From: Leucocoprinus leucothites
Taxonomy: Eukaryota; Basidiomycota; Agaricomycetes; Agaricales; Agaricaceae
NCBI GenBank assembly: GCA_013368445.1
Contig: JAACJO010000009.1
Span: 186,001-250,000, forward strand
DNA: 64,000 bases
Direction: 5' to 3'
Under the pieces are notes generated by a model, which was given only the letters and a program-made list of their open reading frames with translations, was not told the origin of the DNA and did no database searches. Both the position numbers and the translations under genes were made by a program. Position 1 is the stretch's first letter; each line of letters opens with the position of its first letter. Below are positions 47,639 to 64,000 of the stretch, piece after piece.

Positions 47639-50435
47639 TCTTGAGGAGTGTTCCTCTAGTATTGTGCATTGCGACTCTCATCTCCAGCACCCGCACCACC
47701 GTCACCACGACCTGCACCCACCTCCGGGGGATGGGGACATCGTTATCCCCATCTTCGTCATCTCCGATACCTGTATTGGACCATTGAGCCCAGATATCGC
47801 TCTACTCAGGCTGTTTGTTTCGCAGGCGTTCACATCCACGTCATTCATTCCAGGTTTCTCGAGGAATACGACGGTGAAGCAGCAGTACCAGAACAATAAA
47901 CTCTCCTCTTTGACGCTAAAGGGCACTTATTTACGGATGGGCATGGGACGGTTACAGTGAGAGGAGAGACATGAAGAGATGGCAATAATGTTGACGATTT
48001 TGAGCATTGACCTGCTCACCCCCTTACCATGAGTTGATTAATTTCTCTTCGCTTGATTTGGTCTCGCTCTTCAAATTCCCCTTCCTTGGGGTTTGGTTGT
48101 CGGGCTGTGAGATTATGCATCGCATTTCCTACGATTTGGTATGTGGTGGATCGGAGGCTAGAGCTTGAGTGATTCGGCCGGTTTCAGACCCTCGCTTGCG
48201 CCATTCTCGATTACTGTATGATTCAGATGCTTGTTCTATTCGATGTTTATCTAGTAGTTCTTTTAATTCCATATCCTCCTTCTCTCGTGTTCTGATATTA
48301 ACTTTTGGCCTAACACAGCCATACTGCCACCAAAGCTCGTCCTTTGAGCTCAATGCCTCATTCCGACACCAGCTTCCCAAGATCCACGGCATCATTGCAT
48401 TCCTCCATCACCCACTCCTCAAATTCCTCGCAGCCCAGCCGTCTTCTTTTTACGTCCAGTCTCTAGAGATAGGCCAGGAATTACGAGGTCGCCACGCACA
48501 GCAGCACCTCGTTGTGCATCAGCCTACGTCATCGTTGAACGTTGAGGGCTCGAGCGTGTCCTCCTGTTCTATAGTACCTCATATACTCACATATCCCAGG
48601 ACTCGAGCTGGCCTCTGGAATAGCCAGTTCTTCTACTCTGCTCTCTAGGCCTCAACGAAGTGAATTTGTAGACTCGTTTCTTACATTACATATGCCTTGT
48701 ATTCACAGGTAACTTCCGCTCTAACTGGTCCGTGGCTTTATCCCCGGACCTCTTGGCTTCGGCGAGAGAATTTGACCGCCGTAAGTTGCTGATTGCCAAA
48801 GGGATGGTTTATGGAATTGTCTGGCATGACTATCATCGGGAAGGTACCCAGACACCGATGGGAGGTGTTATTTTTAGGTGTATTCCGCCAGAGGAGTATG
48901 ACCGATTCGACTCGGAGACTTCCAGGCGATGCGTCACTTCCTGACGGGAATGACATTATCTCACCTCGTTCGGTAATAGGGGATTAAGGAGAGTGAAACG
49001 GCGGGGATTATCCAAGCATTTTATCCTCGTGTTCCTTCAGTCCTTGCGACAATGAGGAATTTCTACTCTCAGCGTAACCCAGGAAATGTCATGAGCTCTG
49101 CGAAGCTGGTCGTGGCGAGAAGTCAGTGAATCAATATTGTGAATTCGATGCAACGGAGCAATATTTCTATGAGTCTGAGGCAATGGATTACAAGAGAGCA
49201 ATGCAGATCTACAAGACTGACTCGAAGTCCAAGATGTGGGATGAGTTGTGGGTCCCACCGTCTTCAGTTCTCAACGCCTAACTACCACAGCACTATTAAA
49301 TAGTTACTTCAGATATTCTTATGTGGAGTTGTGAAGTCGTATTACTATTATACACGCCCAGCCACTCTCCGGCACGTCCTTGTCGGACTATGGTGGTCGC
49401 AGGACTGGTCCGCCCTGCGGGCGCGATCACGTCTCACGTTCGGACTATTCAATGACTGTTGGTTATGGGGGACTGTTTGGGTGACGAGATAAGCCACCTT
49501 TGTATGTGGTGCCCCCGGACTAGCGGTAGATGAGCTGACTCGCCCTAGCTCTGTGTCCGAGAGTATAACCGACCGATCCACTCGTCTCACTGTTCCGAGC
49601 AGTGGAGTCGGAGTTAGACGTTGGTTGAGGTCGATGTTAAATTCTAGACTCATCCTACTTGCAAATGAGCTCTTGGGAGCTTGGAATCCAAATCCAGGTC
49701 ATTCTTCATGTAAGGTCGGTAACTTGTACGATGTTCACATGGACAACACATAACCGGCCATGATTTCACACCAGACATTGAAAAATGAAACAGTGCAAAG
49801 AGTTGAGGAGGGCTGACGGTAGAAATCGGTGCGAAAGAGGAGAGTTCGAGGCTGTCTACTACCATGCGTTGTTCCCGTTATAGCAATTTTGATTTATCTG
49901 GTTGAAGACACCGCTCGGGCTCAATAACGGGAACGGTGTGCTCATCAAATGTTCTCTTCAACAAGAATATATTAGCAAGTGGCAATCTTAATCGACGAAA
50001 TTAAGGACCCGGCGCGTTGGGACACCTATTAACTACAAGAGGAGCACGCTGGGGTAAAAAAAATCATTGGCAGCCCGTGCTTAACGTTTCTCGCTGTGTA
50101 TGTAGCACAAATGATACTGACCACCTGGCACGTTTGTGGCCTGGTGATACTATCAGCACCGGAGTCGCGGAAGTGACAACTATGCGTGTGCTCGACGCAT
50201 GGTGAAGCGCGTCCTCGTAGAGTGATAGTTTTCATGCACGATGCTGGGTATCGGTTTGGTGGTGTGCATTGGTGTTGGTCGGGAAATGGATGTCACGCAC
50301 CTCCGCATGAACGAGAGGAGGGTAATGTAGTAGCCTCGAGCCCTGAATAAAGCAAGAAAAAAGGGAGGTAGCGGGTGAGCATTGTTAGCCGCGCTCGGCT
50401 ATGGTAGTTAACCCGCATTCGCCTGGCATGAGAGC
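47639..50435. other. Gene-poor stretch with possible decayed coding pieces
   Basis: Open pieces with coding-like composition but no recognised family: minus 48395-48129 (VNIRTREKEDMELKELLDKH), plus 48732-48944 (KLLIAKGMVYGIVWHDYHRE), plus about 49120-49279 (SEAMDYKRAMQIYKTDSKSK). They are not joined by obvious introns. Confidence 0.3.
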
Positions 50436-50575
50436 CTCTTATTGCGTCAGTGATACCGAATACACGGTTAATCAGCGACGATTTCCCAACATCAGACTGG
50501 TGGGTGATTAGCACGATGGTGCGAGAAGACAAGACTGCAGGGAACTGACTCGACCGACTGACAGGATGCGGAATC
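50436..50575 (-). pseudogene. Fragment of a P-loop GTPase
   Basis: The minus strand encodes IVLITHQSDVGKSSLINRVF then GITDA, a Walker A-like segment. The first Gly/Ala of the loop is His, and the preceding RFRFRILSVGRVSS lies in another frame. It resembles the N-terminus of the GTPase family found intact at 51078 in the opposite direction. No G3 or G4 motif follows. A degenerate paralogue is the simplest reading. Confidence 0.45.
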
Positions 50576-51077: not shown

Positions 51078-54000
51078 ATGTCTACGCAACAGGCCCCTCG
51101 TCAGCTCCCAAAAATCAAGTTCCGAGTCCTGATTATTGGGAGGGCAAATGCTGGCAAAACCTCTATCTTACAGAGAGTCTGCGACACTACGGATAGTCCA
51201 GTTATTTACAGGCGAAATGGCTGGGAGGAAGAACCGGTACGGTGTCTAAGGTTAACTCTGCCAGTTTGGTCTCACCATCTTACTAGATTCAACTCGACCC
51301 ATCCATGGATGTGGGTAATATAGTACCATTTGTCGGTTACTACTGATCCTTGAGCCAGCATGGTGAACACAAGATTGATGACGAGATCGTTTTCTCCAAT
51401 CATAAAGGTTATGTTTTTCATGATTCCCGCGGATTTGAGTCGGGGGGTGTAAATGAATTGGAGATTGTGCAGAACTTTGTGCGACAGAAGTCTGGAGAAC
51501 CACGACTGGCATCTAGATTACACGCAATATGGTTCGGAGTTTTGAGCATTTATGATTGCGACTACTGACAGTCATATTTAAAGGTACTGTGTTCCCATGG
51601 ACAACCAGCGACCGGGGCTTGATTTGAAGCATTTCAAAGATATCTGCCCTGATCAAAACGGTGCGTGAGTATGAAGCGTTGCCATAGAGGTTAACTCATG
51701 ATTTTGAAGTCCCTGTTATTGCAGTGTTCACAAAATATGACCAATTCAAGCTGGATGTGGAAATGGATTTGGAGGATGGGGATGTCAATGGGGCGGAGAC
51801 CACGCCTGAGATACAGTTTGAGGAGAACTACCTCTGCCACCTTGGTGCCGGAGCTAAGTATGTGCGATTAGAGAGTGAGTTCAGGATATAGATTTTTAGC
51901 TATGTGCTAATGCTTGTCTGTCAGAAATGCACAAGCCAGATGGGTGCTGCAAGGAACTTATTGAAGAGACAGCTAGAGTGTTGAATGACAATGTGGTGAC
52001 CTTGATGCTTGTGGCAGTGCAGAGGAGTAATGTGGAATTGAGTGTCAAGTTAGCTGTTGAGCGGTGAGTATGCTTGCATAAGAGATGTGGAGGGTTATAT
52101 AACATTCCACAAACACAGTACATTACCACATTTGGAGAGTGATGCTGAAGATATTATGAAGAAATGTTTGAGGTCATTCCCATATATCTGGGTGAGTGCC
52201 TCTGCTCACTCCACTTGCTCTGTTTTCCCCCTGCTGATGTTGGCTGTCCTCTGTTCTCCAGTTTGTGAGTGCCTATGCTGGCTTGCTCTGTTTTCCCCCT
52301 GCTGATGTTGGCTGTCCTCTGTTCTCCAGGATGTAAGTGCCTGTGCTGGCTTGCTCTGTTTTCCCCCTGCTGATGTTGGCTGTCCTCTGTTCTCCAGTTT
52401 GTGAGTGCCTGTGCTGGCTTGGTCTGTTTCCCCCCTGCTAATGTTGGCTGTCCTCTGTTCTCCAGAATGTGAGTGCCTGTGCTGGCTTGCTCTGTTTTCC
52501 CCCTGCTGATGTTGGCTGTCTCCTGTTCTCCAGGATGTGAGTGTCTGTGCTGGCTTTCTCTGTTTTCTGCCTGCTGATGTTGGCTGTCCTCTGTTCTCCA
52601 GGATGTGAGTGTCTGTGCTGGCTTGGTCTGTTTCCCCCCTGCTGATGTTGGCTGTTCTCTGTTCTCCAGGGAGTGAGTGCCTGTGCTGGCTTGCTCTGTT
52701 TTCCCCTTGCTAATGTTGGCTGTCCTCTGTTCTTCAGGTTGTGAGTGCCTGTGCTGGCTTGGTCTGTTTTCCCCCTGCTGATGTTGGCTGTCTTCTGTTC
52801 TCCAGAATGTGAGTGCTTATGCTGGCTTGGTTTGTTTTTTTCCTGCTGATATTGGCTGTCCTCTGTTCTCCAGAATGTGAGTGTCTGTGCTGGCTTGCTC
52901 TGTTTTCCCCCTACTGATGTTGGCTGTCCTCTGTTCTCCAGGATGTGAGTGCCTGTGCTGGCTTGCTCTGTTTTTCCCCTACTGATGTTGGCTGTCCTCT
53001 GTTCTCCAGTTGGTGAGTGCCTGTGCTGGCTTGCTCTGTTTTCCCCCTGCTAATGTTAGCTGTCCTCTGTTCTCTAGTTTGTGAGTGCCTGTGCTGGCTT
53101 GCTCTGTTTTCCCCTTGCTGATGTTGGCTGTTCTCTATTCTCCAGGTTGTGAGTGCCTGTGCTGGCTTGCTCTGTTTTCCCCCTACTGATGTTGGCTGTC
53201 CTCTGTTCTCCAGGGAGTGAGTGCTTGTGCTGGCTTGGTCTGTTTTCCCCCTGCTGATATTGGCTGTCCTCTGTTCTCCAGGATGTGAGTGTCTATGCTG
53301 GCTTGGTCTGTTTCCCCCCTGCTGATGTTGGCTGTCCTCTGTTCTCCAGTTTGTGAGTGCCTGTGCTGGCTTGGTCTGTTTCCCCCCTGCTGATGTTGGC
53401 TATCCTCTGTTCTCCAGTTTGTGAGTGCCTGTGCTGGCTTGCTCTGTTTTCCCCCTGCTGATGTTGGCTGTCCTCTGTTCTCCAGTTGGTGAGTGCCTGT
53501 GCTGGCTTGCTCTGTTTTCCCCCTGCTGATGTTGGCTGTCCCCTGTTCTCCAGGATGTGAGTGTCTGTGCTGGCTTGGTCTGTTTCCCCCCTGCTGATGT
53601 TGGCTGTCCTCTGTTCTCCAGTTGGTGAGTGCCTGTGCTGGCTTGCTCTGTTTTCCCCCTGCTAATGTTGGCTGTCCTCTGTTCTTCAGGTTGTGAGTGC
53701 CTGTGCTGGCTTGCTCTGTTTTCCCCCTACTGATGTTGGCTGTCCTCTGTTCTCCAGGATGTGAGTGCCTGTGCTGGCTTGCTCTATTTTCCCCCTGCTG
53801 ATGTTGGCTGTCCTCTGTTCTCTAGTTTGTGAGTGCCTGTGCTGGCTTGCTCTGTTTTCCCCCTGCTGATGTTGGCTGTCCTCTGTTCTCCAGAATGTGA
53901 GTGCCTGTGCTGGCTTGCTCTGTTTTCCCCCTGCTGATGTTGGCTGTTCTCTGTTCTCCAGAAAGTGAGTGTCTGTGCTGGCTTGGTCTGTTTTCCCCCT

Positions 54001-54746
54001 GCTGATGTTGGCTGTCCTCTGTTCTCCAGGGAGTGAGTGCCTGTGCTGGCTTGCTCTGTTTTCCCCCTGCTGATATTGGCTGTCCTCTGTTCTCCAGGAT
54101 GTGAGTGTCTGTGCTGGCTTGGTCTGTTTCCCCCCTGCTGATGTTGGCTGTCCTCTGTTCTCCAGTTTGTGAGTGCCTGTGCTGGCTTGCTCTGTTTTCC
54201 CTCTGCTGATATTGGCTGTCCTCTGTTCTCCAGGGAGTGAGTGCCTGTGCTGGCTTGCTCTGTTTTCCCCCTGCTGATGTTGGCTGTTCTCTGTTCTCCA
54301 GGTTGTGAGTGCCTGTGCTGGCTTGCTCTGTTTTCCCCCTTCTGATGTTGGCTGTCCTCTGTTCTCCAGAAAGTGAGTGTCTGTACTGGCTTGCTCTGTT
54401 TTCCCCCTGCTGATGTTGGCTGTTCTCTGTTCTCCAGAAAGTGAGTGTCTGTGCTGGCTTGCTCTGTTTTCCCCCTGCTGATGTTGGCTGTCCTCTGTTC
54501 TCCAGGTTGTAAGTGCCTGTGCTGGCTTACTTTGTTTTCCCCCTGCTGATGTTGGCTGTCCTCTATTCTCCAGAGAGTGAGTGCCTGTGCTGGCTCACTC
54601 TGTTTTCCCTCTGCTGACATAGCTTGTCCTCTCCTCTCCAGTCTATAAGTGCTTGTGCTTACCTTCTCTGCTTTGCCCTTACTCACTTCAGTATTCAGCA
54701 CAATATATTATGTCAACGACAATCACCAAACAGGTATTGCTTTTAA
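51078..54746 (+). CDS. P-loop GTPase whose 3' part runs into a 36-unit intron-like array
   Basis: Predicted guanine-nucleotide-binding protein of a family expanded in mushrooms. ATG 51078 (MSTQQAPRQLPKIKFRVLII). G1 is GRANAGKTS, G3 is DSRG (HDSRGFESGG, about 51422) and G4 is TKYD (about 51733). Introns with checked frame: after EEP (GTACGG), after DPSMD (GTGGGT), in LHAIW-YCVPMDN, in CPDQN-VPVIAVF, in YVRLE-KMHKPDG and in LAVER-TLPHLES. The last ordinary exon ends LRSFPYIW at 52191 in phase 0. It is followed directly by the module array (52192-54641) and an in-frame tail 54642-54746 (SISACAYLLCFALTHFSIQ.., TAA). The G domain is secure. Whether the real 3' end uses the tail, the micro-exons, or stops early by intron retention is unknown. 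The genomic neighbour at 50436 is a decayed relative. Confidence 0.75.
52192..54641 (+). repeat. Array of 36 intron-like modules separated by single 3-nt blocks
   Basis: Module 1 (52192-52261) is 70 nt. From 52265 on, 34 steps of exactly 68 bp reach 54577, and module 36 ends at 54641. Each later module is a 65-nt block: donor GTGAGTG (GTAAGTG in the modules at 52333 and 54509), mid-block TGCTGATG or TGCTAATG branch-like site, pyrimidine-rich end and CAG (TAG in the modules ending 53077 and 53825). The triplets between modules are in order TTT GAT TTT AAT GAT GAT GGA; GTT AAT AAT GAT TTG TTT GTT; GGA GAT TTT TTT TTG GAT TTG; GTT GAT TTT AAT AAA GGA GAT; TTT GGA GTT AAA AAA GTT AGA; last TCT. 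Nine different codons, no stop. A decayed 37th unit with donor changed to ATAAGT follows at 54645-54691. Confidence 0.97.
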
Positions 54747-55190
54747 GAAAAGTCATTGTTTGAATCTCCTCATCTATCTTTCTAGTTCTCCTCTGGCACT
54801 CCTGGATGTCATCTTATGACTGGTATTTATTTTTATAATCCTCAATGTATCTTTTAACTTTGGTGTAGTCATCATCATCCTTTTGAAGCATGCTACAACT
54901 TTGCATCCCTCTGGCCTTTCCTCCCAGTCAGCTCTATTCCAAGCACATTTAGACTGCCAGAGGTTGAATATTGGACCCAAAATCATACAACACTTTACTG
55001 AACCTCCTCAAGACTATTCTGTCCAGGATTTTGTGGACTTTATTATGGGTGTTATGGTTGGTCTACTCTTACACTATCAAGACAACATCTAAAATTGTTT
55101 CTAGTTTTAATCTCTATGCCAATCTTGTCATTTTCATAAAAGGAGTAAAGGGTGAAGAATAGAAGCTAGGGTTTAAGTAGTGTAAAGATA
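54747..55190. other. AT-rich spacer between array and transposon
   Basis: A minus-strand open frame at 54774-54986 (..NLWQSKCAWNRADWEERPEG..) has no recognised family and may be a remnant of mobile DNA. Confidence 0.35.
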
Positions 55191-55416: not shown

Positions 55417-56436
55417 TCAATACTTTGTATGACCTCCTCTTGCCCTGATAACTGCCTCAATCCTTCTGGGCATGCTTTCTATCAGCCTTTGGCACCTTTC
55501 TGCTGGAATCTTATTCCACTCCTCTACTAGCCTCTCCCACAATTCAAATACTCCCTTGGGTGGTCTTTCATATGCCTTCAGCTGGTCCTTCAGGTAGGTC
55601 CAGAGGTGTTCAATGGGATTTAGGTCAGGGGATTGTGCAGGCCATGGTAGAACTTGAATGTTGTTGTCCACAAACCATTGTTGTCCCAGTTTTGAGGTGT
55701 GTTTTGGGTCATTATCCTGCTGGAATATCCTCTCCTCCTCCTCCATCTCCAACTTTTCAAAGCTTTCCACCACCCCATTGTCCAAAATCTCGCAGTATTG
55801 CACTGCATCCATATTCCCTTGAACCTCTATCAGCTTTCCTACCCCATTCCACCCCATACACCCCCACACCATCATGTTACCACCTCCTCCATGTTTGACA
55901 GTAGGGAGAGTGGTCCTATCTGACAGTGGTTCCCCCCTCTCCTTCCAGGTATACACCTTTCCATCTGACCCAATCTTGTTGATCTTTGTTTCATCTGTCC
56001 ACAACACCCTCTTCCAGTCCTCCACTGTCCAATTCCTATGTTCATGTGCAAAGTCAAGGCGTTCCTCACGATGTCGCTTTTTGAGTAGAGGTCGTTTGAT
56101 CTTGGTTACAGAGCGAAATCCATTATCCTGAAGGGTATTTCTGACAGTTTGGGGTGTGACAGGGTCAGACAGAGTAGAGTTAATGAAAGTTGTAGCCTGG
56201 ACAGCATTGTCTAGCTTTCCAGAGGTTATTTGGTGAATTATTGCTTTTTTATCACAAGGAGAAAGCTTGGAAGGACGTCCTCCCTTGTTGTTTTCCTTGT
56301 CCCCATCAACTTCTTTCTTGATCCTCCCAACAGTAGACTTTCCTAGACCAGTTTTATGTTCAATCTGGCACAAGGAATAGCCATCTTTGAGAAGAGAAGT
56401 GACTTGGGAGTATTGGGTAGAGGAGATAGCTTTCAT
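55417..56436 (-). CDS. Tc1-type transposase, DD34E, apparently intact
   Basis: 339 aa, ATG 56436 (MKAISSTQYSQVTSLLKDGY). The N-terminal helix-turn-helix DNA-binding region (residues 1-50, SLCQIEHKTGLGKSTVGRIK) and a second one (about 55-110) bind the inverted repeats. The catalytic triad of the RNase H-like fold is visible: Asp in WTDETKIN, Asp in FQQDNDPKHTS, Glu in SPDLNPIEHLW, with 34 residues between the last two, which defines the DD34E Tc1 group. Length is normal for the family. It ends ARGGHTKY, close to the ARGGHTQY end of the decayed element at 62206-63528. No introns, no stops. Confidence 0.95.
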   Translation of the reverse strand: MKAISSTQYSQVTSLLKDGYSLCQIEHKTGLGKSTVGRIKKEVDGDKENNKGGRPSKLSPCDKKAIIHQITSGKLDNAVQATTFINSTLSDPVTPQTVRNTLQDNGFRSVTKIKRPLLKKRHREERLDFAHEHRNWTVEDWKRVLWTDETKINKIGSDGKVYTWKERGEPLSDRTTLPTVKHGGGGNMMVWGCMGWNGVGKLIEVQGNMDAVQYCEILDNGVVESFEKLEMEEEERIFQQDNDPKHTSKLGQQWFVDNNIQVLPWPAQSPDLNPIEHLWTYLKDQLKAYERPPKGVFELWERLVEEWNKIPAERCQRLIESMPRRIEAVIRARGGHTKY

Positions 56437-56573
56437 GATGTAGTGGCAGGAAGAAAGACAGTTGTAGCCATCTCAACATGTCAACCAAGGTCACATGATC
56501 TTGTTTATTACTCCCACGCCTGCCCTGATGCTCCCCTGGCATGTTACAAGGTAGATACTGGGAGGCTGACAGG

Positions 56574-56783
56574 GGGTCAAAAAACTGTCCCAATGAGTAG
56601 ATATTTTCGATAATTCATTATTAACTCATTGATGGACAAGGTCATGTGATCATGGGAATATATGCGCCCAATATGTCAAGGTACCTGTGTGAATATTTTC
56701 AGGATGCTAGGCCATATATCTGCCCTGGTATTAGCAAATATGTCCAAAATGCGAAAACATTGGGACAGTTTTTTGAGCCACTG
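56574..56783 (-). repeat. Right terminal inverted repeat of Tc1-type element
   Basis: Mirror image of 55191-55400 with a single mismatch. The 19-bp motif occurs at 56577-56595 and inverted at 56758-56776. Confidence 0.9.
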
Positions 56784-56785
56784 TA

Positions 56786-58392
56786 TATGACTTCCCAGGA
56801 TAGATCATAACTTCTACTTTTGTACAAGTGCATCAACACATCAGAATCAAATATAGACCTACAGTTTGTTGGCAGCCTGCCAGTTGATAACATTGACCAG
56901 TTCTTATATTGGATGTATATACTCAGCTTCACACCAAGCTTGTGTGAATGGCTAATACTCATACCTATTGGATATATATGCTACAATATATCATTAGAAA
57001 CTACAAAGCCTTTTGTGGGATTAAACTGGGAGCTCACCTCAGCTTCACACCAAGCTTGTGTGAACAGCTGAGGATCACCACTTGATCAAAAACCCTTTTA
57101 TCAGTGGGAATTGAGAGGAATAAACTATATAGTTATGATGGAATAAAAATGGCCACCAGTGGAGGGCAAGAAAAGGGAAGGCTGTTGCATGCAGCTTTCA
57201 TAACACTTTACCACTACAGTATGTAGTTTATTCTGTGTCAATACTGCAAAGATTTGTGCCAACTAATATGTTTTGTCAAGAGAAATAAGCATACTAAAGC
57301 CTTCCAGGAACTCCCAGGATGGGGCCAGAAATGTTGAGAAATGATGGTCATATATGGTCACATGGATGGGCATCACCTGGCATCACTCATCAAAATCTGT
57401 ATACTATATTAAGGTTTATGAGCAGCTGGTTTCTCATTACTGAACAGGGCATAAAGTTTTCAGCTTTAATTCATTTCCTGGAAATCACTGAATTCCTTAT
57501 GTCTTCAACTCCTAGAATTGTTCATTATCTATCTTTGACAAAAGTCTTCAAAACAGCAGTGAAAAGCTTCCACCATTGATTATAGGTGGATTCAGCAAGC
57601 CATGCCCCTTATAAAACAAGACTGGAGAGTAACTTGGATATAATTATTAGTTCAATGCCAAAGTGTGGATGACCTCAGTCATTTACTAGGAGTGGCTTTT
57701 ACACTGGAATAATGTGTTTCAAGCTCAACAACACCATATTATCCATCTACAGGACAGTTTCTCTAGTCATATTATTCCCCATAGCCTCACCAATATCTGG
57801 ATCATTAATGTTGCACAGAATCTCACATTGCACATTTAGCCACTTAATCAAGGCATTATTCAATGTTTCAAAGCTCATTACCAAACAGATTTCATTGTAC
57901 TGTATGAGCCATTGCCCATTATAATACTAATCACACTCTATCTGATATCTATTCTATCAATATACTTAAAGCTATGTAGCTTGGCTGCTCCACCTGGGAA
58001 GATGTTGATATAACTATTATCTGGAACTATTGGAAGAAAGCAAGTATTCTCCCAGCTTGCAACCCTGGGCCCTCCACCAACTTGACAATCCTCATTTCCA
58101 CACTTCTTAACCCCTAGGAAACCTATGGTCACACCACTACTGATGATCCTATTGCATGTGTTGAGAGAGAATTGGAGTTGGCTCTTGATAAACTTCAGGT
58201 TTGGGGAGTCTTGCAGGCAAGTAATCAAATGAGCCTTGACATGTTGCTCAATCTGTTATAGTGGTGCTAGTCTAGTCCTAAGCTGGTGTGATAGGTATGA
58301 GATTGATCCTACCAAAGGGGACTCCTTTTTGGTAAGCAACAAAGTCATTTAGAGTCTGTTCAGTATCAATAATATGTACACAATATTACATT
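56786..58392. other. AT-rich repeat-derived DNA without recognisable genes
   Basis: Only short ORFs (e.g. 57938-58228 minus). A 21-bp palindromic block occurs twice at 56928-56948 and 57044-57064. Likely old mobile-element debris. Confidence 0.4.
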
Positions 58393-58977
58393 ATTAACCA
58401 TGAAATTATTAATTTCAGTGATATAGTCAATATATTGGATGACTGTATACACATTAAAGAACCCTACTATAAGACCCTAGTATAACAAATACTTTCTTGA
58501 AAGCACAGCACATTCACAAAATGACCAATTATGAATTATGATTAGAGTAACAAGAGGCTATAGGATGATGTTGAGACTTAGTGAACATGGTTGGGATATA
58601 TACCCTATGACCCTTTGTGATCTCAGCCTGTAACCTGGGTATTGATCTGGTTGAAAGTCAAAGAACAATTACAGACTAATTGGAGATCAAAGGCTTAGCT
58701 ATCTGATCTGGGCAGCTATTTGTCCACATTCACCAAAGTCTTATCATTTTAATATTGCTACAGCAGAAGTATACTCTTTTGCAAAAGACAGAGAAATTCT
58801 CCATGGCCACTGAATGACCCACTTGATTATAGAGCCAGATTAGCAGAAACTAACAGGATATGTCAGTACTTAACTACTGGCTGGTAGACATTGCTATAGT
58901 CAAGAATGAGCTTTTGTGAAACAAGACAACAATCAGCAGTGAGAATAGTCTCATGATATCAGATGAGCAGATGTTAC
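58393..58977 (+). repeat. Direct repeat, copy 1 (LTR-like?)
   Basis: About 585 bp starting ATTAACCATGAAATTATTAA and ending near ATATCAGATGAGCAG. It matches 59767-60352 over its length with scattered substitutions and small indels. No clear TG..CA ends, so an LTR is possible but not shown. Confidence 0.7.
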
Positions 58978-59766
58978 AATGTTGATGGAAATTTTGCCAT
59001 GGAATAAGCCTGTGACTGATAGCAGTAGACTGTGGTCTTTGTAGGCATAGTCACTATTACATCAGTCACAGCCCCCTTTCCTTTTTGCCTCCATGACAGT
59101 GCTGGAGTGCTTATCATGCACAAATCTGTTTTTGTATCTCTTTCAATATAAATCCCTTTTCTACTCCTTTATACTTGGTTCTGATACAACATAATGTTAG
59201 ACAACACTAAGTATATACTTGGATGGCAGACAATATACTGCCACCTCCACTACCTCCTCTGGATCTTGCTGCACCAGAGTTTGAAGCTCACTGATGGCTG
59301 GCCCAACAACTTTTCCACATACCTAAAGACCATGTAGTAGAACAGCTCACCCAAGCATTACAAGGTCAACATCTTGGAGGGAGATGAAGATCAATGAAGG
59401 GATGATAAGCCAGGTCCTCCAGCTCAACAGCAAGACCAACAGCTGCAGCAGGACCTAACTGCAAAGAGGACAGTCAAGATCACCCAAGGCCTGATGGTTT
59501 TATCTATGTAAATACCAGACCCCTCTGACCATACTCTCCACAAGCTCCAGAACCATGAATACATCAAACTCTGGTACTTTATACCAAAAGGCTGTAATGC
59601 ATCCACTCAACAAAGCCAGTCTCTTGATGCAGAGGGTTTCACACTTATACAAGGAGAATTTGGCCCAAGCCTACTTCCTGTTTATGTCACCCCTGTCCCA
59701 AAGAATCAGGTGATCCAAGACAAGGATCTCTCATGGTCAGAGATGATGATGTTATGGCCCAAACAG
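58978..59766 (+). other. Decayed sequence between the two direct repeats
   Basis: The plus strand has Gag-like remnants near 59240-59370 (e.g. LPPLDLAAPEFEAH, VEQLTQALQGQHLGG) broken by stops, consistent with an old retroelement body. No intact frame. Confidence 0.4.
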
Positions 59767-60352
59767 TATTAACCATGAAATTGTTAATTTTGATGATATA
59801 GTCAATATATTAGGTAACAGTATACATATCAGAGAACCCTACTACAAGGCCCCAGTGTAATAAACACTTTCATGAAAGCACAGCACATTTGCAAAACAAC
59901 CATTAATGATTAGAGTAACAAGGGACTATGGGATGATGTCAAGACTTAGTGAACATGGTCAGAATGTGTACCCTATGACCCTTTGTGATCTCAGCCTATA
60001 ACCTGGGTATTAATCCAGTCAAAGTCATTCTCAAAAGAATAATTATAGACTAACTAATTGGAGATCAAAGGCTTAGCCTTCTGATCCAGACAGGTACTTG
60101 TGCACATTCATGAAAGTCCTTCCATTCCAACATTGCTACAGCAGAAGTATACTCTTTCAAGAAAGACAGAGAAACTCTGTATGCCCACTGAATGATACAC
60201 TTGACTATAGCACCAGATTAGTAGAAACTAACAGGACATGTCAGTACTTGACAACTGGCTAGTAAACATTGCTACAGTCAGGAACAAGCTTTAGCAAAAC
60301 AAGACAACAATCAGCAGTGATAATAATCTCATAATATCAGATGAGCAGGTGT
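59767..60352 (+). repeat. Direct repeat, copy 2 (LTR-like?)
   Basis: Second copy of 58393-58977, sharing TGACCCTTTGTGATCTCAGC and GACTTAGTGAACATGG blocks. Same orientation, about 1.37 kb apart. Confidence 0.7.
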
Positions 60353-61125
60353 AAGCACACCTTCATGAAAGGATGTGTCAGCACTTAACCCCAAAGAAAA
60401 CCCAGAGATACCCCTATTGGACAATCCTTTAATAATCTCCTTTTGCTATCAACAATGTGTATGTGTTATCCATGTAATTACTCCTTTAGCACTTTTGTGA
60501 AAACCAATATAAACCTTTCTTAAGCATATAGTCTAGCAAGAAATCCCACCTGCTAAGGCTACACTTAGAGACTGTCCCACACAACATATCTGAGTGAGTA
60601 GTAAAAAGTGTATTGAGTGTCCTTCCCTCATAGACCATTAAAGAATTGGAAAACACCTTTTGAGAAAGAACATTACTGTGAGATTCATATAAGTTCAGAG
60701 TATGAAGAAGTCTGGAAAAGACTTATAAGCTGTATATTGCATCTAGTATCCAGGAGTGGTACTAGTCAGTGTCAGGTGTATTGTGATAGTGCTGAGTGTT
60801 AGTAAAAGTGACAATTCACAAATACTGGTCTATTACACTTCTGCATTTTAAGAGACTTGTAGTTGTGCAGCATTGCATAACAAGGATTGTTGAGTACCTT
60901 TTGTGAACTGGTCATTCCAATACAAAACCAGTCTACAGACAACTTCTATTATCTATCATTATTAACCTTTGCACTTTCATGAAATATCCTTCTTTATTGA
61001 TTATCCTCCCATGAACTTGTATTGAGTTTAGGAGTGTTGGTTGTTATTGTTACTATTGTTACCTATCATTCACTATCTGACTACATTGCATTCACTACCT
61101 TAACAATCACATTTCTGCCTCTTCA
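60353..61125. other. AT-rich spacer or leader of the retroelement
   Basis: No ORF of note; short open frame 60617-60802 unrecognised. It contains an ACTTTCATGAAA-like block near 60970 that resembles TTTCATGAAAGC in the direct repeat. Confidence 0.35.
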
Positions 61126-62112
61126 ATGGCAGTCAGAAACAGCATAATTGCACACATGAGAAACTATGGATGGGCTGATGAGCTCATCCTCATGTTCATG
61201 CAGTTCTTCCTGAAGCTGGACACACACCCTTTTCATAGCAAGCCAGATGGGGAGAAGGCCCTCATTGCCTCCCAAGCAGAAGTTTGATGAGAATGGCACT
61301 ATTTTCTTCTTGCCAATGAGGACAGTGGCTTCTTTGACCTTTCAGTCATCAATGACACCTGGCTGTATGCTATTGGAGATGAGCTGAGGTGAAGATGACA
61401 TGATGAGGCCATTGCAGAGTAAGTAACAAATCTTGACTCTAGCTCACTGGAACTGCTGCTAACAAAATTCTTCCCTCCTTTTGGTTTTCTGCACACTACA
61501 CAATAATGCAAATTTCGATTTTACAATGGCCCTGCTACCTGCCCTGTCTCTGCCCTGCCCTGCCCCACCACTAGTGGTACAACTATAGCCACCCTACTTA
61601 GGCTGACATTGACAAGAGACACACTATAAAAAGGCACATGGTCCTACTGGAACTATTCACGATGCTATCAGCAAAACCAGCATCACCAGTCACACTCTCC
61701 TTCACTATCTTGAGTGTCCTGAAAAGCTTCAAAATGCAAACAGAGTCACTCACCATCCCTGTCAGATGATGAAGCCCAGCATGATGGGCTATCAAGGAGA
61801 CCTTAGAGGAAAAAGCCCTTTCAGTCACCCTCATCTTCAGCAGTCCTTTCTGCCTGCCCAAATTGCCTCAGATGACATCACCATGACATTGCAAACTGAA
61901 ACACAACTGTACACTGGGACAAGCAGACCAACAGGTGCTCCTGCATGCAAAAGGGTCATCTCTGCTTTTCTAGTAGAACAGTCCTATGTACTGACTGGCA
62001 AAAACCTATAGGATGCTGCAAGACAGCACATAGCCCCTCCAGACACCAGTGTTTAGAATGTGGAGTGATAGATCATAGAGCTCAGAAGTGTCCTAGCACA
62101 CAGACAGCTTAA
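61126..62112 (+). pseudogene. Degenerate Gag-like region with CCHC zinc knuckle
   Basis: From ATG 61126 the frame reads MAVRNSIIAHMRNYGWADEL then FFLKLDTHPFHSKPDGEKAL, which resembles the Gag-like proteins of mushroom retroelements, before two stops near 61286. A later piece gives SVINDTWLYAIGDELR. At 62050-62091 the frame reads CLECGVIDHRAQKC, a C-x2-C-x4-H-x4-C retroviral-type knuckle. The region is broken by stops and shifts and cannot make a full protein. Confidence 0.6.
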
Positions 62113-62205
62113 GGCCCTCACCCTGTACATACTAGATAAATGGTGTAAACTACTTGACTCCTCTGGTCTCTCTGTCAAGTATCCCCATGTTGCCAGCATG
62201 TTGTA

Positions 62206-63528
62206 CTTGTGATCAGAAAAAGTATTGAACATTATGTAAGCAACATGCTCCCATGATGTCAAGGAACATGTCACAAAAGTGGCCATTCCTCATGAACAAT
62301 ACATTATTACTTCTTCAAATGCCACCTCATCAGACCTCTCATAGGGAGTATGATACTCCCAAAAAAAATAGGCTTGTTGGAGCCTACAAAGCAACAGAAA
62401 ATATTGCCAAAGCAGCACGCATAGAGCACATCAACTATCCAACTGCCAGAAGGATCATCCATAAATACCTGGAGACTGGATCAACATCAAATAAACCCTG
62501 CTCAGGCTGACCCAAGATCTTAACAGAGCATATGGAATGACAAATTGTGAGGGAGGCCACAAAAAACCACTGGAAACCATTCTCTGAGATTGTAAACAGT
62601 CTCAATCTACCTATCAGTGGGGATTCAGTGTAGAAGGCTCTTGCATGGAGAGGATACCATTGCCGGGTTACTAAGAAGGTCCCATTCCTGACCCAGAAGC
62701 ACTGCCAACTTTGTCTCATGTGGGCTCAGCTGTTTAGGAAGTAGAAACAGCATCACTTCTTAAGCATCATTTTTTCAGACAAGTGCTATATTTGTATGGG
62801 GGACAAAGCTGGCCATGTCTTTATCACACGGCAGCCAGATGAAGTCCTTCATGATGACTGTGTAGTACCCCAGTTCAAGCAGTCTTCCATATGTGTAATG
62901 GTTTGGGGTTGCATTGTTGATGGAAAGAAGAGACCTTTGGTTGTGTTAGATTATCCTGGGGGAAAAGGGGGTGGAATGACTTCAGCCCACTATTGTGAGC
63001 AGGATCTGGAGCCAATCCTGAAGGACTTCTATAATGAAGTAGCCCAGAAGCATGGTCAAGCCCTGTTTCAACAAGACAATGCATTGTCACACATGAGCAA
63101 AGCAACCCTATCTTGGTTTTGAAGAATCAGATTCCACACTTTCCCCACCCTGCATCTTCCCCTGACCTCAATCCTATTGAGGGTATTTGGCATAAGCTCA
63201 AGGAAATTATCTGACATTCACCACATCCCCCAACATCACTTAACACCCTCAAGGCAGCAGTACACCAAGCCTGGGATGAGCTATCAGTCAAGACAATTAA
63301 TAAATATATTCACACAATGGAAAACTGTGTTCAGGCTGTTCTGAAAGCAAGAGGAGGGCATACACAGTACTAATTGATGCATAAAATGCAATTAGATGTT
63401 GTTAATAGTCTCCCTTTTTTTTCTTGTACATGTGGATGGTTGAGTGTACACAGTGAAATCTATTTTTTTGTGCAGATCGAAAAAATGCGAAAAATTATGT
63501 AATGATCAATACTTTTTCTGATCACAAG
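62206..63528 (+). mobile_element. Degenerate Tc1-type transposon, 1323 bp
   Basis: Flanked by TA (62204-62205 and 63529-63530). Ends are inverted: left CTTGTGATCAGAAAAAGTAT at 62206, right its reverse complement ending 63528; pairing extends about 29 bp. It is inserted into the retroelement described around it. It carries one decayed transposase gene. Confidence 0.9.
62328..63372 (+). pseudogene. Broken DD34E transposase of the second Tc1-type element
   Basis: Readable pieces: YKATENIAKAARIEHINYPT (HTH), VTKKVPFLTQKH, CVMVWGCIVDGKKRPLV, FQQDNALSHMSKATLSWF, SPDLNPIEGIWHKLKEI and ARGGHTQY. At least six in-frame stops interrupt it (after TSNKPCSG, after TEHME, before KALAWRG, after QLFRK, after LSWF, after LKEI). 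The first catalytic site is altered (FSDKC). The second Asp and the Glu keep the 34-residue spacing. Non-functional. Confidence 0.9.
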
Positions 63529-64000
63529 TATAATGGCTTTATGGCAGGTATCCCCCACATCATGACTACTTACACTCCAAATAATTGACCCTCTATAATT
63601 GAATATAATACTGCACTTCATAATGTTGTTAACACTGAGTTCAAGAAACAGAGATATGCTGGCCCACTTGCCAAAGAAGAAGTCATACAGCTCATTGGTC
63701 TATTCTAAACCTCACCACTAAGCATCATACCCAAACCCAATAAGCCAGGAAAATTCAGACTCATTCAAAACTTCTCACACCCTCACTCACACAGTTCACT
63801 AGTCTCTTCAATCAATAGTGCTATCATCTCAGAGCTACACCACTGCACTTGGGGCACTTTTGGTACTACAAGGTTATTTACCCATGCCTTCAGCATGGGG
63901 CATTGACACAGTAGTTAGGCTCACACATCTGAAGTCTGAGTTGAATAGGAGTCTTATAATTCCAGTACAAATTTGATAAAGACAAAAAACAGTATCTACA
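63529..64000 (+). pseudogene. Reverse transcriptase N-terminal part, degenerate and cut by window end
   Basis: The plus frame reads NGFMAGIPHIMTTYTP, then YAGPLAKEEVIQLIGLF, a stop, TSPLSIIPKPNKPGKFRLIQ and CTWGTFGTTRLFTHAF. The IIPKPNKPGKFRLI block is the fingers region of an RT family common in mushroom genomes. Several stops are present. It continues the retroelement begun at 61126 across the Tc1 insertion and runs out of the window. Confidence 0.7.

Follow-up and report, generated by a model that had tools for sequence, protein, structure and literature searches.

A GTPase gene of Leucocoprinus leucothites with a tandem array of predicted one-codon exons between near-identical introns

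Introduction

The micro-exon genes (MEGs) of schistosomes combine exons of 3–81 bp with introns of 100 to almost 5000 bp, and alternative splicing of these very short exons has been proposed as a source of protein variation (PMC10526429). Here we analysed a stretch of 64,000 nucleotides from the basidiomycete Leucocoprinus leucothites (GCA_013368445.1, contig JAACJO010000009.1, positions 186,001 to 250,000, forward strand), called the window throughout. It contains a GTPase gene with an array of 36 intron-like units and 35 in-frame 3-nt blocks between them, which we interpret as one-codon exons. As a sequence layout this resembles the MEGs in its many consecutive frame-neutral micro-exons (35 here, 14–76 in ten paralogs). 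In contrast to the MEGs, whose exons vary in length and whose introns are long, every array exon would be a single codon, the introns are near-identical tandem 65–66-mers (59–70 nt at the extremes), and the host is a fungal GTPase gene (PMC10526429).

The het-d/het-e (hnwd) genes of Podospora are similar in another respect. They also form a multi-copy family with homogenised tandem units and few hypervariable codons per unit, and the length and order of their arrays change fast (PMC1805685, PMC2873952). Similar repeats, few hypervariable codons and array turnover between close copies were all found in the Leucocoprinus family, but not the STAND/NACHT-WD40 architecture, since its Pfam matches are limited to GTPase models below threshold. 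Unlike hnwd, where the whole unit is a coding WD40 repeat, it is the intron that is homogenised here, with one coding codon per unit (PMC1805685, PMC2873952).

That spliceosomes, one of them fungal, can use exons of 1–3 nt is known from a 1-nt exon of Fusarium CYP621A (PMC12940212), a 3-bp exon of Drosophila hth (PMC7392893) and a 1-nt exon of Arabidopsis (PMC4674806), but those exons are isolated, whereas the arrays described here hold 14–76 in tandem. Stwintrons and Introners likewise represent families of similar introns, in fungi and elsewhere; they are nested or dispersed over genes, whereas the present introns lie head-to-tail in one gene family with codons between them (PMC8469720, PMC9860276).

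Searches of the open-access literature on arrays of one-codon or 3-nt exons, on intron arrays, on microexons of Agaricomycetes and on GTPases of Lactarius yielded no such gene, in agreement with a first-pass annotation of the window, made from the sequence alone, which knew of no described gene of this form. As far as we know, no earlier gene spells out an entire protein segment with a separate exon for each residue, as this family would, in arrays reaching 76 codons. The usual pattern is turned round in these genes, with conserved introns and hypervariable exons.

Layout of the array

Tandem Repeats Finder detected an array at 52214–54659 with a period of 68, 36 copies, 91% matches and 0% indels. 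Parsing by splice signals gave 35 blocks of the form AG-NNN-GTRAGTG with all spacings exactly 68, the first starting at 52262 and the last at 54574, within 36 intron-like units that span 52192–54641. The first array intron has 70 nt and the next 35 have 65 nt each. Both methods thus agree with the exact 68-bp period and the 36 modules of the first-pass annotation, and its statement that the blocks are in frame and free of stops also holds: all 35 are sense codons in the frame of the upstream exon. In order they encode F D F N D D G V N N D L F V G D F F L D L V D F N K G D F G V K K V R. The array was also rightly placed inside a GTPase gene; exons of a P-loop GTPase with homologs lie directly upstream.

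The blocks as codons

Together with the window gene, 11 GTPase paralogs of the same genome carry such arrays, with 14–76 blocks each. None of their 352 blocks is a stop codon, compared with 32.0 expected from pooled base frequencies, although this count overstates the independence of the blocks because they are related by duplication. When each codon is counted once per array (73 codons), stop avoidance still gives P = 0.001. The 352 blocks include the last block each of loci L018 and L019, whose last donor reads GTGGGT. A single substitution separates 157 of the 352 from a stop. In the nine main arrays, which share the unit of the window, the blocks are always 3 nt long, while intron length varies from 62 to 67 nt, with 59 or 70 nt for the first. 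The residues encoded by the arrays are biased, with 39% D/E and 39% F/W/Y/L, and the predicted segment contains little K/R.

Codon choice in the 319 blocks of the nine main arrays differs from that in the ordinary exons of the window gene. NAG and NNC codons are absent from these blocks. The ratio of GAA to GAG is 46:0 compared with 11:13 in the ordinary exons (Fisher P = 5e-8) and that of AAA to AAG 18:0 compared with 9:11 (P = 2e-4); TTT occurs without its C form (54:0 vs 7:8, P = 8e-7), as does GAT (76:0 vs 15:10, P = 2e-7). We attribute the lack of GAG and AAG to the fact that an AG closing a one-codon exon would make a second acceptor. A C before GTGAGT is probably avoided for the sake of the donor or as a CpG.

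Conserved introns and hypervariable codons

The array spacers carry the features of U2-type introns, namely GT..AG ends, a conserved CTRAY-like branch and a fungal size. Among the 301 introns of 65 nt in the nine main arrays, the donor is GTRAGT in 300 and the branch CTGAT or CTAAT in 298, and the remaining positions vary by 4.5% on average. The GT..YAG ends were imposed by the parser, but the unit chains are gapless from the first to the last unit, and therefore no broken unit was dropped inside the arrays.

Within the nine main arrays the introns are 91–98% alike. The mean difference within an array amounts to 2.4–8.9% for introns (positions 7–62) and 46–63% of sites for codons, and information per column is 1.45–1.65 bits in the codon compared with 0.18 on average, and 1.06 at most, in the intron. 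Even where both flanking 65-nt introns are identical, the codon differs in 70% of 183 block pairs, by a mean of 1.66 of 3 nt, and the codon difference between blocks hardly shifts with the divergence of the flanking introns. Which codon a block holds shows some association with two intron columns, 22 and 31, and we attribute this to differences among the arrays.

Array lengths and codon orders differ even between close copies, both for L013 and L014, whose ordinary introns are 0.4% apart, and for the window gene and L010 (0.8% apart). Multi-unit duplications are seen inside arrays, such as LDWADD in L015 and EELDPFFS in L011–L012. These patterns suggest that units are reshuffled by unequal crossing-over or conversion, together with selection for diverse codons; a locally raised mutation rate may be an alternative source of the codon diversity.

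Paralogs and distribution in the genome

Arrays with the unit of the window occur at eight other places in the 47-Mb genome of the species, each behind the same GTPase exons. The paralogs C52 and C30 contain arrays of another intron, of 66 nt, with a period of 69 bp and again 3-nt blocks. In all 11 paralogs the array is positioned between the same exons.

Genome-wide, the pattern GTGAGT-N50..68-YAG-NNN-GTGAGT was found 340 times, compared with 10 matches for the reversed control, and on this ground a chance tandem repeat was rejected. Within the loci of the GTPase family it was found 333 times; the two counts come from two programs, which may treat overlaps slightly differently. Since about 333 of the 340 matches lie there, the architecture is nearly confined to one gene family, as judged by this one pattern.

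Two further paralogs, L021 (C19) and L022 (C22), have decayed arrays (L021:5750-6930 and C22:425k) with diverged introns and some broken splice sites, and represent a natural control for lost selection. Two of 17 units are broken in L021 and one of 16 in L022, where the GTPase exons hold stops.

Related sequences

The relative P0110, a protein of 397 residues from another fungus (JGI contig of 1394 nt), reads PFPYIW - DDHHHFLLLDGDLLFDDDDFLFLDDDFLFDDLDL - VHYIMSMSILKM.., followed by the C-terminal domain. The tail between FPYIW and this domain has 34 residues of D/L/F/H/G, with 41% D/E and 47% F/W/Y/L compared with 39% and 39% in the arrays. At its N-terminus, P0110 can be aligned with exon 1 in a different frame, and the reading continues across the position of intron 1; counterparts of introns 2–6 are absent. 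Intron 1 is thus apparently kept and introns 2–6 are missing, as would be expected of RNA, and we take P0110 for an RNA-derived sequence in which intron 1 was retained and an array may have been spliced.

P0001 is the public model of the C18 paralog from the same species. Its sequence is identical to FPYIW followed by the first array intron in unspliced form, then nine joined blocks and a downstream exon. The joined blocks TTT TTT CCT TTG GAA TTG GAA TTG CCT are the first nine of the C18 array in order, although the ninth (CCT) could be one of several blocks with this codon. The six public models of the species that were examined skip, cut off or, as in P0001, misframe the arrays, so the current annotation of such genes may be wrong.

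P0050 reads LFEEEGDTFIE and then VSGCNGLI, and P0093 has FFFN followed by a read-through intron. Both look like transcripts that were spliced through several codons and then kept an array intron. When the Leucocoprinus intron is read through in frame 1 (VSACAGLLCFPPADVGCPLFSS), it matches tails of Lactarius, Flammula and JGI sequences; for 15 of 60 tails, the match in frame 1 or 3 was better than that of every one of 300 shuffles. Lactarius has many paralogs of the GTPase among the best 120 of 1619 relatives (P0013–P0119), and over a dozen Lactarius tails with a read-through array intron suggest mis-annotation. Because of these intron-like tails in Lactarius, the intron family appears to be shared with Russulales.

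Alternative readings

We estimate a probability of roughly 0.87 that the array represents a run of 35 exons of one codon each; their near-identical 65-nt introns would be removed singly, yielding a 35-residue acidic, aromatic segment. The one-codon exons proposed by the first-pass annotation are supported through stop avoidance, ten further arrays, P0110 and P0001. Apart from the relatedness of the blocks, a number of observations weigh against this interpretation. Splicing at the window locus is predicted from sequence. The codon rule is broken outside the nine main arrays by one AAG block (C30) and two TTC blocks (C52, C30), so that the avoidance of GAG, AAG and NNC is not absolute, and the ratio of AAT to AAC in the blocks (9:0) does not differ significantly from that in ordinary exons (9:5). 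The tail of P0110 could lie in one exon in its own species, and searches with this tail and the C-terminal region matched P0110 alone. P0001 reads the blocks out of frame and omits the rest of the array, and its nine joined one-codon exons stem either from transcripts or from prediction. Block codons were found in none of the other five models of the species seen (P0002, P0003, P0008–P0010). P0120, a JGI relative on a short contig, has an ordinary-looking tail, and P0050 and P0093 point to frequent incomplete splicing.

As a conservative alternative, the first-pass annotation had considered a single amplified intron, in which a single splice would take out the 2.45 kb between 52192 and 54641 (or a later position) and the blocks would be intronic spacers. 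Donors and acceptors are all alike, so such a long splice is possible and would keep the frame, and the public models P0002 and P0003 skip the arrays. Intronic spacers would hardly account for the lack of stops in 352 blocks, the lack of NAG and NNC in 319, the constant 3-nt length in nine arrays, codons that are hypervariable between conserved introns, or residues skewed to D, E, F, L, W and Y. P0110 moreover holds such a segment and P0001 nine joined blocks, and with ten further arrays the single intron is unlikely. The read-through array introns of P0050, P0093 and several Lactarius models, and the first array intron kept in P0001, would fit a splicing-dependent switch or sink, in which most transcripts are unproductive owing to the many introns, with the codons being incidental. 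We regard this as very unlikely, since incidental codons would not avoid stops or vary far more than the introns, and the ends are the same in paralogs with 14 and with 76 blocks.

It is extremely improbable that the array is a non-coding satellite or a minus-strand repeat protein whose resemblance to introns arose by chance. The conserved positions include the branch and the donor, and the flanking exons are the same in 11 paralogs, which argues against this reading. An open frame of 305 codons does cross part of the array on the minus strand (53784–54701), but a period of 68 cannot be divided by 3, spacings of 65–70 elsewhere would shift the frame, and two paralogs have a period of 69. The minus-strand protein was therefore rejected on frame and spacing, and the 305-codon frame was taken to result from a unit that has few stops on its minus strand.

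Proposed mechanism

For an array of one-codon exons we propose splicing from 5' to 3' by intron definition, because a 3-nt exon can hardly be defined alone. Each 65-nt intron is a complete unit with donor, branch and acceptor, and therefore the array could be spliced from its 5' end, with every codon attached to the exon upstream of it before the following intron is removed. The segment would then sit between the GTPase domain and the conserved C-terminal domain. Skipping could in principle give up to 2^35 products.

The near-identical introns would also supply homology for unequal crossing-over or gene conversion, both within and between arrays. Because the homogenised part is the intron, a crossover between units would change whole residues and keep the frame, so that residues could be inserted, deleted or reordered, while selection would maintain diversity among the codons and preserve the splice sites. 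The introns are thus probably recombination spacers, through which single residues of the peptide can be rewritten. In view of this reshuffling and the selection for codon diversity, we take the segment to be probably a fast-evolving binding or recognition surface; that it serves nonself recognition or immunity is a guess drawn from analogy. The full scenario, a one-codon-per-exon diversity generator on a dynamin/IRG-like GTPase, with introns as recombination joints, optional skipping, possibly a function in nonself recognition, and an origin early enough to be common to Agaricales and Russulales, is tentative, and we consider it slightly less probable than its opposite.

Gene model

The features of the window gene are compiled in Table 1. 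The GTPase part has the P-loop GRANAGKTS, and the introns between its seven ordinary exons are GT-AG introns of 48–55 nt. A search of 5.8 billion proteins returned 1619 relatives, and the genera named among the best 120 are Leucocoprinus, Lactifluus, Lactarius, Flammula, Galerina and Psilocybe, presumably all Agaricomycetes. Pfam gave sub-threshold matches to GTPase models (MMR_HSR1) for the window GTPase and its relatives, and no WD40. The AlphaFold2 model of the paralog P0002 is weak (mean predicted local distance difference test score 65), and its best PDB matches are dynamin-like, EHD, IRG and Era GTPases. Since the model is weak and the matches are broad, we name only a broad class: the host protein is probably a TRAFAC-type GTPase.

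Downstream of the array, a 7-nt exon is predicted (TCTATAA in the window gene, CACATTG or CATAATG in other paralogs), and behind it an intron of about 50 nt in phase 1 and three further exons, through which the frame continues into the conserved C-terminal domain. This frame is open to the stop in 10 of 11 paralogs, and L016 is frameshifted in the last exon; for L018 and L019 the 3'-end reading omits the last block, a difference of one codon in length. The C-terminal domain of the window gene is 56% identical to that of P0110 over 62 residues (E = 4e-17). The first-pass annotation had all introns in phase 0, which holds for the array introns but not for the one behind the 7-nt exon. It also had the frame open to the TAA at 54744–54746. 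This frame is indeed open, but the gene most likely runs on to 55092; an end at 54744, and with it the proposed C-terminal tail, was rejected because the paralogs and P0110 carry the conserved domain further on. The predicted protein has 405 residues from 46 exons, and 45 of the 45 introns of the model have GT-AG ends.

Table 1. Features of the array-bearing GTPase gene (window coordinates)
Feature	Position	Strand	Basis
GTPase part, 7 ordinary exons, 270 residues ending FPYIW	51078–52191	+	open spliced frame, homologs
Ordinary exons 1–4	51078–51236, 51287–51310, 51359–51531, 51584–51660	+	open spliced frame
Ordinary exons 5–7	51710–51874, 51925–52063, 52119–52191	+	open spliced frame
First array intron (70 nt)	52192–52261	+	GTGAGT...CTCCAG
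Array: 35 one-codon 3-nt blocks (predicted exons) at 52262+68i, 34 introns of 65 nt between	52262–54576	+	Tandem Repeats Finder, parsing; splice ends and CTRAY-like branch conserved
Last array intron (65 nt)	54577–54641	+	parsing
Predicted 7-nt exon TCTATAA	54642–54648	+	frame kept into C-terminal domain in 10/11 paralogs
Phase-1 intron after 7-nt exon	54649–54698	+	predicted
Predicted exon (..QYIMSTTITKQ)	54699–54733	+	resembles P0110 VHYIMSMSILKM
Predicted exon (FSSGTPGCHLM..)	54786–54822	+	open spliced frame
Last predicted exon, C-terminal domain (..IIILLKHATTL..VQDFVDFIMG..HYQDNI, TAA)	54869–55092	+	P0110 and paralogs

Neighbouring sequences

An open reading frame at 50293–50532 on the minus strand resembles the start of a divergent GTPase relative (..SDVGKSSLINRVFGITDAIRGS..) and lies head to head with the array gene; it has no Pfam match. 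Eight other array paralogs, as well as the L020 fragment, have similar divergent GTPase relatives at a distance of no more than about 8 kb, and the array gene and the divergent relative possibly form a linked gene pair. An open reading frame of 339 codons at 55417–56436 on the minus strand, some 0.3 kb beyond the point where the array gene is predicted to end, encodes a Tc1/mariner-like transposase (Pfam DDE_3 and HTH_Tnp_Tc3_2). The G+C content is 0.40–0.42 at 56001–64000, compared with mostly 0.45–0.53 in the rest of the window.

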